Positions 4,814 to 27,841 of a DNA stretch of 64,000 nt are shown piece by piece. The notes under the pieces are model-generated. The model had not been told where the DNA came from. It made no database searches and was given only the letters and a program-made list of their open reading frames with translations. The stretch comes from Natrialba aegyptia DSM 13077 (lineage in GTDB: Archaea > Halobacteriota > Halobacteria > Halobacteriales > Natrialbaceae). Within the stretch, counting starts at the first letter, position 1. Each line of letters starts with the position of its first letter. The DNA lies in assembly GCF_000337535.1 (NCBI RefSeq), contig NZ_AOIP01000016.1, positions 1-64,000 on the forward strand, given 5' to 3'. The translations under genes and the position numbers were made by a program.

Positions 4814-4897
4814 CTCGGGCGGACTGCTGGAAGTCAGTTCCGACGCACCTGTAGACGGCCGCGGGTGCGCCCTGAATCGGTACGGCAGACCGTCTCA
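4814..4897 (-). repeat. Dispersed palindromic element, copy A (84 bp), overlaps NYN stop codon
   Basis: Read on the minus strand it starts TGAGACGGTCTGCCG and ends CCAGCAGTCCGCCCGAG, the two ends being imperfect inverted repeats around an internal GC-rich palindrome (GGCGCACCCGCGG...). The initial TGA is the stop codon of the NYN gene (4895-4897). Three related copies lie at 13188-13272, 19387-19470 and 25053-25134. The element could form a long hairpin in the mRNA 3' end. Confidence 0.85.
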
Positions 4898-5392
4898 GAG
4901 CAGGAACGTCTCGTGGCGGTCGCCCAGATCGAGGAACGTATCGGCTGCGTCGATCAGTTCGTCGGCCGTGGAGGATTCGAACGCCATGACTTCGACGCGG
5001 ACGCCCTCGTGACGAAGGTGCGAGCAGAGTCGTGAGAAGTCGCCATCACCGGTACACAGCACTACCGTGTCGACGTGGTTAGCGAGCGTTACGGCGTCGA
5101 GGCTCATCCCGACGTCCCAGTCGGCCTTTTTCGTGCCGTCGGAGAACGTCTTGATGTCCTTGATCTTCGTCTCGAAGCCGATATCGACGAGGGCATCGAA
5201 GAAGCTCTCCTCCTCCGGTGCGTCCGCACGGATGACGTAGGCGATCGCACGGGTGAGCTGGCGGTCCTGAATGGCCTTCGAGAGGAGCGCAGAGTAGTCG
5301 ATATTGCGACTGTGAAGGCTCTGTGCGGAGTGATAGAGGTTCTGGGCGTCGACGAGAACGGCGACGCGCTGGTCGGGATGGATATCGGTCAC
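4895..5392 (-). CDS. NYN domain protein (LabA/DUF88-like, PIN-fold nuclease)
   Basis: A 165-residue NYN-domain protein. The acidic cluster expected for a metal-dependent PIN-like RNase is visible: D15 and N18 in VLVDAQNLYH, D91 and D93 in KKADWDVGMSLDA, and D116/D118 in CTGDGDFSRL. The domain fills the whole protein. NYN proteins act on RNA, but the substrate here is unknown. The stop codon is provided by the first three bases of a dispersed palindromic repeat, so the 3' end of this mRNA carries that hairpin. Single gene, divergent from nothing close; HtpX lies upstream on the same strand. Confidence 0.9.
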   Translation of the reverse strand: MTDIHPDQRVAVLVDAQNLYHSAQSLHSRNIDYSALLSKAIQDRQLTRAIAYVIRADAPEEESFFDALVDIGFETKIKDIKTFSDGTKKADWDVGMSLDAVTLANHVDTVVLCTGDGDFSRLCSHLRHEGVRVEVMAFESSTADELIDAADTFLDLGDRHETFLL

Positions 5393-13187: not shown

Positions 13188-13272
13188 CTCAGCCGAACTG
13201 CTGTCGGGCAGTGCCGGCGCACCCGCGACCATCTACGAGTGTGCCGGGGACTCGGTGCAGCAGACCGTCTCA
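13188..13272 (-). repeat. Dispersed palindromic element, copy B (85 bp), overlaps SnoaL stop codon
   Basis: On the minus strand it reads TGAGACGGTCTGCTG at the start and CGACAGCAGTTCGGCTGAG at the end with an internal GGTCGCGGGTGCGCCGG half-palindrome. Its first TGA (13270-13272) is the stop codon of the SnoaL-like gene. Same family and same orientation to the upstream gene as copies at 4814, 19387 and 25053. Confidence 0.82.
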
Positions 13273-13692
13273 GGCCAGCGGATCGTGTCCGATCTGTTGG
13301 AGGAGCCCGAAGAGGTCCACGTTCGCCCACCGTTCCGCGATTTTTCCGTCCGCGATACGAACGACGTGGATGCCCATGATCTCGACGGATTCGCCCGTCG
13401 GTTCGATACCCATGAACGGCCCCTCGTGGGTCCCCGTTATCCGCCCCCAGAACGCGACGTAGTCCCCGTCCCGCATGTAGCGTTCGACCTCGAAGTGCAG
13501 GTCCGGAAACGTCTCGTGGTAGTTCGAAACGAACGACTCGAACTCGGAGAGCGGTTCCTCTCCGGACCCCGTCGGATCGTGGTACACCTGCTGGTCGGTG
13601 AGCACGTCGTCCATCGCATCGACGTCCCCGTCGTTCCAGACGACATCGACGTACCGCTTTGCGATCGCTTTGTGCTCGTCGTCTGCGGACAT
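13270..13692 (-). CDS. SnoaL-like ester cyclase / NTF2-fold protein
   Basis: A 140-residue protein of the SnoaL polyketide-cyclase-like superfamily (NTF2 cone fold). DVVWNDGDVDAMDDVLTDQQ and YHETFPDLHFEVERYMRDGD, then WGRITGTHEGPFMGI are the family signatures. Many members are small-molecule enzymes of unknown substrate; no biosynthetic gene cluster is nearby, so the role is open. The stop codon is contributed by palindromic element copy B. A run of eight C residues upstream (about 13733-13740) is a place where sequencing errors are likely. Confidence 0.85.
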   Translation of the reverse strand: MSADDEHKAIAKRYVDVVWNDGDVDAMDDVLTDQQVYHDPTGSGEEPLSEFESFVSNYHETFPDLHFEVERYMRDGDYVAFWGRITGTHEGPFMGIEPTGESVEIMGIHVVRIADGKIAERWANVDLFGLLQQIGHDPLA

Positions 13693-19037: not shown

Positions 19038-19376
19038 ATGAGCTACGATACGGCAACGAAGACCGATCCGGAATCGATCATTCCCGAAGAGTACGGCGGC
19101 ATGTGGTTCCTCAAGGACGAACTCGGGACCGACCACCTCGGGTTCTCGGTCCTCGAACTCGAACCCGGCGCGGAGGGAAAAGCACACGACGAATCCGAGA
19201 CCGGCCAGGAGGAGATCTACTACGTCGTCTCCGGAACCGTCGAGGTGGAATTGGACGACGAGACGCTCACGCTCGAGACGGACGAACTCGTGCGGCTCGA
19301 TCCGGACGAGCGCCGGAAGGTTTTCAATCGCGGCGACGAGCGGGCGAAGCTCGTGCTGGTCGGCGCACCGCTGTAA
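19038..19376 (+). CDS. Cupin domain-containing protein
   Basis: A 112-residue single-domain cupin. GEEIYYV-type motif 1 is represented by GQEEIYYVVSGTVEVELDD (about 62-80), and motif 2 by LVRLDPDERRKVFNRGDE. The usual metal-binding histidines are mostly replaced (H55 is the only candidate), so it may be a non-metal, binding-only cupin. Start at ATG 19038 (MSYDTATKTD), since upstream residues in frame overlap the divergent promoter. The palindromic repeat copy C begins ten bases after the stop. Confidence 0.87.
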   Translation: MSYDTATKTDPESIIPEEYGGMWFLKDELGTDHLGFSVLELEPGAEGKAHDESETGQEEIYYVVSGTVEVELDDETLTLETDELVRLDPDERRKVFNRGDERAKLVLVGAPL

Positions 19377-19386
19377 TCCGTCGGAC

Positions 19387-19470
19387 TGAGACGGTCTGCT
19401 GGACCGATTTCCGGCGCACTCGCAGCCGGTCGCGGCTGCGACGGCATTGTCCGACAGCAGTCCGTCTAAG
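19387..19470 (+). repeat. Dispersed palindromic element, copy C (84 bp)
   Basis: Starts TGAGACGGTCTGCTGGACC and ends CCGACAGCAGTCCGTCTAAG, with a GC-rich half-palindrome in the middle. It begins ten bases after the TAA of the cupin gene, the only copy of four that does not supply a stop codon. It separates two convergent genes. Confidence 0.85.
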
Positions 19471-24297: not shown

Positions 24298-24416
24298 ACT
24301 CGTACCTAACGCTCGTCACCCTTAAAAACATCACATCAACGACAGACGACGTGAGAATCGACGGACGATCGGCGTTGCTCGCCGTTTTGATTACGTCCCA
24401 GTCCAAACGGATGGGT

Positions 24417-25055
24417 ATGACCGACGTACTCGTTCCGGGCGGTCGCGACGTACGCGCCACGCTTACGGAACCGGACGCTGAGACGGATGCCATCGTCGTC
24501 GCTTGTCCGCCCCATCCCCAGCAGGGCGGCTCGCGAACCGATAGCCGACTCGTCGCCGTCGCAGATCGACTCCGCGAAAACGGGGTCGCCTGCCTGCGCT
24601 TTGACTACGGGGAATGGGACGAAGGCTACGGCGAGCGCGAGGACGTACGAAACGCGATCCGGTGGGCCACGGAGCGCTACGACCGCGTCGGCCTCTTTGG
24701 CTTCAGTTTCGGCGCGAGTCTGAGCCTGCTCGCGCCGGCCGATCTCGACGCCGCCGAGCCGCCGGTTGCGGCCGTCGCCGCGCTCGCGCCGACCGCGAGG
24801 CTCGCGGCCGATCTCGATGCAGTCCGCGCACTCGAATCCCTCGACTGCCCGGCCCGAATCGTCGTCGGGGAGCGGGATACGACCGCGGACTGGAAGCCGG
24901 TCGTCGAACGCGCGGCTGAACTCGGCGACGAGAACGAAAACGAAAACGAGTTCGAGGTCGTCACCCTCTCCGCGGACCACTTCTTCGTCGGCCAGACCGA
25001 CACGGTCGCCGAGACTATCGGGCCATTCCTCGAGTCGGCCCTCTGCGAGGAGTGA
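24417..25055 (+). CDS. Alpha/beta hydrolase (dienelactone-hydrolase-like)
   Basis: A 212-residue alpha/beta hydrolase. The nucleophile elbow GFSFG places Ser97; an acid in VVGERDTTADW (about 160) and His in SADHFF (about 191) complete a likely triad. CPPHPQQGGSR (30-40) is the oxyanion-hole loop of the KANL3/Tex30-like branch. A run of alternating Asn and Glu (NENENE, about 174-179) sits in a surface loop. Start chosen at ATG 24417; an ATG six bases upstream is equally possible. Its TGA (25053-25055) is the first codon of palindromic element copy D. Confidence 0.85.
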   Translation: MTDVLVPGGRDVRATLTEPDAETDAIVVACPPHPQQGGSRTDSRLVAVADRLRENGVACLRFDYGEWDEGYGEREDVRNAIRWATERYDRVGLFGFSFGASLSLLAPADLDAAEPPVAAVAALAPTARLAADLDAVRALESLDCPARIVVGERDTTADWKPVVERAAELGDENENENEFEVVTLSADHFFVGQTDTVAETIGPFLESALCEE

Positions 25056-25134
25056 GACGGTCTGCTGTACCGAGTTCCCGGCGCGACCACGGGTCGCGGG
25101 TGTGCCCGAACTGACTACCAGCAGTCCGTGCGAG
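25053..25134 (+). repeat. Dispersed palindromic element, copy D (82 bp), overlaps hydrolase stop codon
   Basis: Begins TGAGACGGTCTGCTGTACC and ends CCAGCAGTCCGTGCGAG, with GGTCGCGGGTGTGCC inside. Its TGA is the stop of the alpha/beta hydrolase; its other end lies three bases from the stop of the convergent HerA gene. Confidence 0.85.
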
Positions 25135-25137
25135 CGG

Positions 25138-27027
25138 TCAGTCCCGTCCGTGACGGGTCAGGCACTTCGAGAGCCCGATCAGTTCCACGGGTTCCGAATT
25201 GTCCGGCGAGTAGACGACCATCTGTCCCTTCTCCATGTAGGGCACCTTTGATTCGAGGTTGCTCGGAATGTTCACGCTCTTGATCGCGTCCTCGTCGCCC
25301 AGATTCAGGACGATGGTCGTGTTGATCTGCTTGAAGACCGCGTCGTGGATGTCCTGGGGGTCCTGCGTGATGAGAAAGAGTCCGAGTCGCTCCTTGCGTC
25401 CCTGTTTAGCGGCCTCGGTGAACTTTTTGATGACCTTCCCCGCCTGCACCGAATCCGCGTCGGTGAGGAAGTTGTGCGCCTCGTCCATCCCGAGGACGAG
25501 CGGCGTCTCCTTGATCCGGTCGTAGGTCGGGTCGTTCGAGAGCTTCTGGTCGATCAGCAGCGAGGATAGCGCCAGCACGATCGTCTCCGTCGCCCGGGTA
25601 TCGTTGATGTGGTAGGTCGGCACCACGGTCAACCCGCCGGGGCGAACGAACTCGTGTACCAGGTCGGTGATCGGCCGCGCGTCCTGATCGAAGACGTGCC
25701 CGAAGCCGAGCACGCGCCGCCGAACCGCGTCGAAGGTCGCCTCGTGGACCCGCCCCGACTCGTCTAACTCCTCGCGCAGCGCGGGGTCGTCGAGAAAGCG
25801 CGTGAACTCGTCGTAGGTCGCGTCGGCCCCGTACTGCTCCCGAAAACGCGGCAGGAGGACGCTGACCAGCGCGCCGTACTGGTTGTCGTTCAACCCGCTG
25901 CCCGCGACCAGCCACGGGTTCTCGTGAACCATCGAAAACGGAATCGTGAACTCGACCTGCTCCGCGCGGTGGTGGCCCGCGGCGTAGGACGAGGAGCCCA
26001 CCTTGGGGATGAACGCCGTCGTATCGTCCCCCCCGCCGTAGGCGATCCTCTCCCGCTCGAGTCGGCGGGCGAACTCGTCGTCCAAGTCGGGGTTGTCGTC
26101 GTGCATCTGGGCGTACTCGTCCTGCGGGTCGAACTGGACGACGGCGGGACCGACCTCGCGGCCGTCTTCCATGGGATACCGCCGCTCGTCGGCGAGGTAC
26201 TGCCGGAGGACGTTCTTCGCGCCGTGGGTCTTCCCCGACCCGGTGCCGCCGGCGACGAGCGTGTGCCGGAAAACGAGCGGGTCGCCGGCCTCGTAGTCGT
26301 CTTTCAGCCGGTAGTCGATCGTCGGCGGCGAGGCGGCGGTTCGAACCTTCTCGCCGCCGACCGAGAGGTGCCCGAGGAAGACGCCGTCGTCGGGCATCTT
26401 GAGGCCGGTCTTGATCGCCTCGGTGTCGTCGGCCTCCCGAATCACCGTCTGGGGTTTGGGGACGCGGTCGGTCATCCGGCGCTCGAGTTCGCCGTCATCA
26501 TCGTAGAGGATGGCTACCGGTTCGAGGTTCGCGACGAACTTGTAATCGGCCTCCTCGATGCCGTCCGTGCGCATCGCCCGCCGCGCGTGGATCTCCGTCG
26601 CGTCGTCGGCGTGGTACTGCTGGGCGTACTCCAGGCCCGTAATGCGACAGAACAGCGTCTCGCCGGTCGACGCTCCGCGGCCGCCGTCCGGATACGGGGC
26701 GAGCAGGTAGCTCCCGATGCGGATCGACGATCGGTTGCCGCGGGTGATATAGGCTCGGAGCGTCGTGTCGTCGCTATCCTCGGCGATTCGCAGGCCCTGG
26801 GAGACGCAGATCGCTCCGATACCGACGTCCTCGCCGCGCGGTTCGGCGGCGGTCGACTCGAAGGAGTCCTCAGCAGTCCCGGTTCCGGCCTCCGCGTCGC
26901 CCGCAGACTCGCTCGCGCGCGCCCGGTCTGCCCGCGCTGTGTCGGCCGTACCGCCGTCCGACACCCCGGAATCGCCGTCGCCGTCGGCGCTGAACTCGCC
27001 GAAATCTCCCAGATCGGTCATACTCAT
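25138..27027 (-). CDS. herA: HerA-like DNA-translocating ATPase
   Basis: A 629-residue HerA/FtsK-type hexameric ATPase that works with the NurA nuclease in DNA end resection. After a disordered acidic N-terminus (about 1-65) comes a HAS-barrel-like domain (about 66-200) and the RecA fold with Walker A GGTGSGKT (260-267) and Walker B LVLGMDEAHNF (about 480-490), plus the LFLITQDPQD sensor segment. NurA is 2.5 kb upstream on the same strand, supporting the role. Start at the ATG at 27027; the 67-residue frame extension is non-coding in character. Symbol by analogy with haloarchaeal HerA. Confidence 0.9.
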   Translation of the reverse strand: MSMTDLGDFGEFSADGDGDSGVSDGGTADTARADRARASESAGDAEAGTGTAEDSFESTAAEPRGEDVGIGAICVSQGLRIAEDSDDTTLRAYITRGNRSSIRIGSYLLAPYPDGGRGASTGETLFCRITGLEYAQQYHADDATEIHARRAMRTDGIEEADYKFVANLEPVAILYDDDGELERRMTDRVPKPQTVIREADDTEAIKTGLKMPDDGVFLGHLSVGGEKVRTAASPPTIDYRLKDDYEAGDPLVFRHTLVAGGTGSGKTHGAKNVLRQYLADERRYPMEDGREVGPAVVQFDPQDEYAQMHDDNPDLDDEFARRLERERIAYGGGDDTTAFIPKVGSSSYAAGHHRAEQVEFTIPFSMVHENPWLVAGSGLNDNQYGALVSVLLPRFREQYGADATYDEFTRFLDDPALREELDESGRVHEATFDAVRRRVLGFGHVFDQDARPITDLVHEFVRPGGLTVVPTYHINDTRATETIVLALSSLLIDQKLSNDPTYDRIKETPLVLGMDEAHNFLTDADSVQAGKVIKKFTEAAKQGRKERLGLFLITQDPQDIHDAVFKQINTTIVLNLGDEDAIKSVNIPSNLESKVPYMEKGQMVVYSPDNSEPVELIGLSKCLTRHGRD

Positions 27028-27073
27028 CCCATCTGACCGGTTCCTAAAACGCGTTTCCCTCCTCGGGTGACTA

Positions 27074-27841
27074 TCAGTCCGACCGCACGGTTCGAACAGC
27101 GAGAACGACGAGTCCGAATGCGATGACGAAGCCGACGCCGAGTTCAGGAACGGAATTCGAGAGCGCATCGAGCGGACCGGTGGTCGTGTCCGCATCCGAA
27201 TTCTCGTCCGCAGTCGTCGCGTTGGCATCCGCCGACAGCGAATCCACGGGGGGATGATCGAACGACTCGAGTTCAGTCTCGCCGCCGTCGATCACGACGG
27301 TCGCCGACTCGCCGACGACCGGCATGGGCCAGTCGGTCGCGAGTTCGATCTCGCTCTCGCCGAACGCGATCGCGGTTTCGCCGGGCGGGGCGTCCGGCGC
27401 GACCGAGACGGTCAGCGTCGCGATCCGCGCCATTCCCGTCGCGCCGCCGGCGACCGGGTCGCGCCACTGCGTCGAGAGCGCCGTCCCCTGCTCGTGAGCG
27501 AGCGTCTGGGTCGCGTACACGTCGGTCTCCTCGTCCTGTTCGATCCACGGCCCGCGTTCGACGTCGGTGATCTCGAGATACTCGGGATGGTACTGCGCGG
27601 CGAGGGTAACGCTGGAAGCGCCGCTGCCGTCGTGGCTCCCCTCGCCGTAGAGGACGACGTCGACGGTGAACTCGTCGCCGGGCTGGGCCGTAATCGTCGC
27701 GGGCTCGGTCGAGATGATCGCGACGCGGTCGCCGGCAGCGACGGATCCAATCCCGCCGAGCGTCAGTGCGCCGACCAGCACAACGACGAATATGGCGGTT
27801 CCCAGTCGTCGTGCGTGTCGGCCTGGAGGGGGCACGGACAT
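27074..27841 (-). CDS. Secreted, membrane-anchored cohesin-like domain protein
   Basis: A 255-residue protein. An N-terminal signal helix (TAIFVVVLVGALTLGGIG, about 14-31) is followed by a cohesin-type beta-sandwich (about 40-190: ITAQPGDEFTVDVVLYGEG, then LAAQYHPEYLEITDVERG and ARIATLTVSVAPDAPPG), an acidic Thr/Asp stalk and a C-terminal TM helix (about 230-250) with a basic tail. Start at ATG 27841, because TATA at about 27873-27879 fits it. A similar domain is in the genes at 38804 and 39636. Lies between herA and a regulator, likely fortuitously. Confidence 0.75.
   Translation of the reverse strand: MSVPPPGRHARRLGTAIFVVVLVGALTLGGIGSVAAGDRVAIISTEPATITAQPGDEFTVDVVLYGEGSHDGSGASSVTLAAQYHPEYLEITDVERGPWIEQDEETDVYATQTLAHEQGTALSTQWRDPVAGGATGMARIATLTVSVAPDAPPGETAIAFGESEIELATDWPMPVVGESATVVIDGGETELESFDHPPVDSLSADANATTADENSDADTTTGPLDALSNSVPELGVGFVIAFGLVVLAVRTVRSD

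Follow-up and report, generated by a model that had tools for sequence, protein, structure and literature searches.

A palindromic mobile element of haloarchaea, probably non-autonomous, that is found preferentially at stop codons

Copies of the element in the window

The window analysed in this study, a 64,000-nt stretch of the genome of Natrialba aegyptia DSM 13077, carries four copies of a short palindromic sequence at or close to the 3' ends of genes (Table 1). These copies had been named in a first-pass annotation made from the sequence alone, which described a family with common ends, repeatedly joined to genes at the stop codon. All four are real, and their shared ends gave 9 matches against a mean of 0.85 and a maximum of 3 in shuffles. 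As had been described, the first TGA serves the upstream gene as its in-frame stop in copies A, B and D, and copy C begins ten bases past the TAA stop of a cupin-like gene. The three copies said to lie between convergent genes are A, C and D; copy B lies between co-directional genes. At the 3' end of each copy stands the second member of a 3-bp direct repeat. Copies A to D are old, diverged members of their family. A search of the whole window with Rfam at gathering score matched only two tRNAs, and the element copies gave no match.

Table 1. Coordinates of the four element copies in the window and of adjacent genes.
Feature	Position	Strand	Remarks
Copy A (3-bp repeats included)	4815..4897	-	TGA 4897-4895 is the stop of the NYN-domain gene; distal repeat is a degenerate CGA
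Copy B	13189..13272	-	Perfect TGA..TGA repeat; TGA 13272-13270 is the stop of the SnoaL-like gene
Copy C	19387..19469	+	TGA 19387-19389 lies 10 nt past the TAA stop (19374-19376) of the cupin-like gene; distal repeat is TAA
Copy D	25053..25133	+	TGA 25053-25055 is the stop of gene 24351-25055; distal repeat is a degenerate CGA
Gene upstream of copy A	4895..5392	-	NYN domain, PF01936; its own TGA is the target duplication
Gene upstream of copy B	13270..13692	-	SnoaL-like polyketide cyclase, PF07366
Gene upstream of copy D	24351..25055	+	Weak Peptidase_S15 similarity, under the curated cut-off
Convergent gene downstream of copy D	25138..27228	-	HerA/DUF87-like ATPase

Structure and distribution of the family

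The genome-wide collection of copies that the first-pass annotation had proposed was carried out with fuzzy and covariance-model searches, and about 70 unique copies were recovered from the window's genome (4.6 Mb, 65 contigs), where the element is found in either orientation at other loci. A copy is a palindrome of 75-80 bp (about 79 bp) with two stems and a conserved internal loop, and the 3-bp direct repeats lie outside it. The layout, read from one end, is T-A, an outer stem of about 10 bp, TGTAA, the internal loop, an inner stem of 13 bp and the hairpin loop, and then back. The end sequence is TANNGNCNGYTGTAA, and the family consensus reads TSA-T-ACGGTCTGCTGTAACGATTTACCGGCGCAACCGC-loop-GCGGTTGCGCCGGAAATGACTTACAGCAGTCCGT-A-TSA. 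A second in-frame stop, created by the conserved TGTAA (or TGTAG), follows the duplicated TNA codon at a distance of five codons in young copies from several families, L112:1501-1518 among them. Among copies that otherwise lie the same way round (L011-L027 and others), the orientation of the hairpin loop is AGGACGGGC in some and GCCCGTCCT in others, as if flipped between the arms, and two Halostagnicola copies (L076 and L082) have a longer loop with common extra sequence (TGGTGAGTCGAACCGTGTGAGACGAGCC..GAGTCAACCG).

The family was detected in 79 of 293 sampled Halobacteriales genomes, representing 33 of 87 genera, and often reaches tens of copies. Near-identical copies with perfect duplications in genomes G119 and G259 point to recent movement, and the family looks recently active in some genomes. 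Phage records contained no match to the element. No description of the element or of stop-codon-directed miniature inverted-repeat transposable elements (MITEs) was found in the literature searched, the genome paper of Natrialba magadii mentions neither MITE, palindrome nor inverted repeat, and the family appears to be undescribed in this literature.

Target duplication and empty sites

In the many copies that were read, the outermost three bases are identical on both sides, TGA..TGA or TCA..TCA, regardless of the orientation of the element, and 139 of the 185 copies that could be assigned have a perfect duplication. These flanking 3-bp repeats are a target-site duplication. Because rare TTA..TTA and TAA..TAA duplications also occur, the target is defined as TNA, of which the TSA forms are strongly preferred. 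Its flanks show a symmetric preference, (C)GAC-TSA-GTC(G), which is much alike at stop and non-stop sites. Hairpin targets were considered and rejected; the flanks of the insertion sites have no dyad covariation beyond the motif, and thus the targets are not hairpins.

The comparison with relatives suggested in the first-pass annotation revealed empty sites. A young copy (C15:239499) is common to the window's genome and G005 and is absent in G002, where a single native TGA at that codon ends the gene. The site orthologous to copy D is empty in G003, which has a single native TGA, and in G001, which has TAA. The element had been thought to provide the stop codon of its neighbour; the single stops at empty sites overturn this claim, and the stop is therefore native and was duplicated by insertion. 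In the copy D orthologues of G004 and G006 (L259 and L260), another short repeated sequence (CTGCTGGTCATCGGT..) stands at the same stop codon, which suggests that unrelated insertions accumulate at this gene end. That the family is an immobile, ancestral gene-end sequence (a terminator or conserved 3' UTR) agrees with the many copies at gene ends between convergent genes, but it is refuted by the empty orthologous sites and is also contradicted by the 3-bp duplications, by one copy nested in another and by identical copies at unrelated loci, which leaves it practically no probability.

Preference for stop codons

Insertion sites were classified with a codon-usage model trained on the window, and the gene calls came mainly from this model. 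The sample comprised 162 independent insertions from the window's genome and other haloarchaea, almost all Natrialbaceae, and 161 of these were of usable length. In 104 of the 161 insertions, the upstream gene ends in frame on the duplicated TGA. Stop codons account for 7% of the TGA sites that do not fall at other coding positions, and for 15% after weighting by the target motif, with weights learned from non-stop insertions only. Among sites with a perfect duplication, 82 of 125 are at stop codons against this motif-weighted expectation of 15% (p = 1e-37). In the deposited plasmid annotation, the last codon of a CDS coincides with the duplicated TGA at 6 of 14 annotated insertion sites (p = 0.01). 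In three genomes of other families, 19 of 27 insertions are at stops (p = 8e-5 against the motif-corrected null), one of them a TAA stop with a TAA duplication. Stop codons are thus favoured genome-wide by an element that is mobile and matches no known IS, so neither of the outcomes that the first-pass annotation had set against its reading, namely, copies indifferent to stop codons or relatives with the same sequence as ancestral gene ends, was found.

The preference is not universal, since the stop share in G119 is at the level of the null. This genome had a recent burst, with many identical or near-identical copies, and 21 of its 70 insertions are at stops (21 stop vs 36 intergenic), a share not above the motif-corrected null (p = 0.31).

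Selection could produce such a pattern if the element inserted at any GAC-TSA-GTC-like site, harmful insertions (in genes, promoters, operon junctions and 3' UTRs) were purged at once, and those at stops remained since the duplication leaves the gene intact. Coding sites are indeed strongly depleted, with 4 insertions observed against a weight of 4892. Operon junctions are avoided as well: none of 59 element-bearing stops has a co-directional next gene less than 46 nt away, compared with 34 of 127 controls (p = 7e-7), as would follow if insertion within an operon were deleterious. The burst genome G119, where coding and intergenic insertions are common and the stop share is near expectation, also suits such purging. 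Positions 1-50 nt past the stop should be equally harmless, yet 104 insertions are at stops and 25 within 50 nt of the 3' end (p = 2e-16); per weighted target, the stop is used 5-fold more than these downstream positions, and divergent far intergenic sites are at the same low baseline. Purging also sits poorly with the stop share in bins of age (nearest-neighbour identity), which is about equal throughout (60-76%) and does not rise with age, and with the near-identical young copies of G259, of which 8 of 10 are already at stops.

Orientation provides a further point against purging, because it is biased at stops only. The left end is toward the gene in 108 of 144 stop sites pooled (108:36, p = 1.5e-9) and at a ratio of 75:29 in Natrialbaceae alone; non-stop sites have no significant orientation bias. 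The first-pass statement that all copies have the same orientation to the upstream gene holds as a strong bias and fails as a rule. Two possible causes of the bias were rejected: GC asymmetry on the element side is lacking at non-stop sites, and gene direction at nearby non-stop sites does not explain it. The excess of stops over nearby harmless sites, its independence of age, the near-identical copies of G259 and an orientation bias confined to stops favour a preference that acts during insertion or shortly afterwards, and we consider purging of randomly placed insertions the less likely source of the pattern.

Conservation and decay of the palindrome

In a set of copies picked solely by an exact match of the left 20 nt, eight pairs of the inner stem have double changes, in 40 cells compared with 11 in shuffles. 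The outer stem covaries too (wider set), and the TGTAA motif and the internal loop are nearly constant. These compensatory changes indicate that the palindrome is kept by selection in the mobile lineage. The consensus, built and folded as had been proposed, forms a strong hairpin (z = -8.8 against shuffles).

The element had been regarded as a possible mobile 3'-end hairpin, and it might accordingly be retained at gene ends because its RNA hairpin stabilises or ends the mRNA. The strong consensus hairpin, the covariation of both stems and the orientation bias at stops are compatible with such selection. The individual copies speak against it: copies A (z = -1.3), B (0.4) and D (-2.1) fold at best somewhat more stably than shuffles, pairing is kept no better at stop than at non-stop sites, and stop-site copies are as diverged as others. 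As a check for RNA-level selection in the left-end-picked set, A.C mismatches were counted and are about as frequent as G.U pairs. A scan of the surroundings of copy D detected no GC stem followed by a T run and no U-tract. A maintained 3'-end function is unlikely because the window copies have lost most of the hairpin, and retention of the element for an RNA hairpin is accordingly an improbable account. The decay of pairing after insertion instead speaks for a role of the palindrome in mobility.

Search for a transposase

The window's genome, G005 and G119 were searched for unpaired element ends, and no autonomous partner was detected at 2-3 mismatches. The candidates inspected were only remnants, nested copies and neighbouring genes. 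The DDE_Tnp_1 transposases of G119 have ends (CATTCGTCTTTAGC.., CTCGGCTCTGCACG.. and CGTTACTTCCC..) that differ from those of the element. Some IS5-family groups make 3-bp TNA duplications; this target is in common with the element, no IS with the element's ends was found, and the likeness is a lead only.

Two further observations concern related elements. One of the DDE_Tnp_1 transposases, 458 aa long, belongs to a 1.4-kb IS (L406:1008-2498) located within a copy of a related TACTG palindromic element. Genome G119 (2.9 Mb; L371-L390) contains a second palindromic element, TACTGCCGGCTGTAA..TTACAGCCGGCAGTA, of about 78 bp with TSA duplications and dozens of near-identical copies. This second type has TA ends, the TGTAA motif and the TSA duplication in common with the family, and its interior is unrelated; 6 of 20 of its insertions are at stops. 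Two of its copies adjoin TACGGTCGGTTGTAA ends and are apparently nested in the arm of the other element.

Discussion

By form, the element fits either of two descriptions, a MITE lacking a known parent or a short mobile repeat of the Haloquadratum kind. The repeats SMR-A and SMR-B of Haloquadratum walsbyi are 80-110 bp long, with prominent inverted terminal repeats and tens of near-identical copies; they were reported without target duplication, and SMR-A with a preference for the palindromes of IS605-type elements (PMC3119063). The present family resembles these repeats in size, inverted repeats, high copy number, haloarchaeal host, strong target preference, insertion into other mobile elements and the absence of a found transposon with matching ends. 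Unlike them, it duplicates TNA and prefers stop codons, a distinction drawn from the published description of the SMRs (HqIRS40-43/55 among them). According to the passages searched in two MITE reviews (PMC10969869, PMC2229807), which do not mention stop-codon insertion, MITEs are likewise short and non-coding, with inverted repeats, TA termini, target-site duplication and presumed mobilisation in trans. The present element differs in being a palindrome over its whole length, with two stems that both show compensatory change, in its preference for stop codons and orientation, and in that no parent was found. REP elements are also extragenic palindromes at gene ends, but they measure 20-40 bp and carry GTAG or CGTC tags, whereas the present element has a length of about 79 bp and duplicates 3 bp of its target (PMC3733652).

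We propose that the family is probably a non-autonomous palindromic mobile element, inserted in trans, which prefers stop codons that end transcription units. An enzyme acting in trans, presumably a DDE-type transposase, would make a staggered cut of 3 bp, as the length of the duplication suggests, in TNA (almost always TSA) within a (C)GAC-TSA-GTC(G) context. The palindrome would be needed for mobility. The preferred sites would be the TGA or TAA stops of genes standing last in a transcription unit, entered in most cases with the left end leading; the stop would be regenerated by the duplication, and the gene would therefore remain untouched. Most insertions in coding DNA would be lost, and the enrichment at stops would arise at or very soon after insertion.

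A sharp and oriented preference for stops is hard to explain because a short DNA target alone cannot tell a stop from any other TGA. Tentatively, and at somewhat less than even chances, integration of the element is genuinely targeted, in an oriented manner, to the stop codons that close transcription units. If so, the machinery would respond to more than a short DNA motif and would sense the 3' ends of genes, for instance via the termination of transcription or of translation.

Tn7 finds a harmless site downstream of glmS. The stop preference described here is either a novel means by which a mobile element reaches harmless sites, comparable with that of Tn7, or an unusually clean measure of selection filtering insertions. 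The family is widespread across a whole archaeal order, and its apparent recent activity in some genomes makes the question testable.
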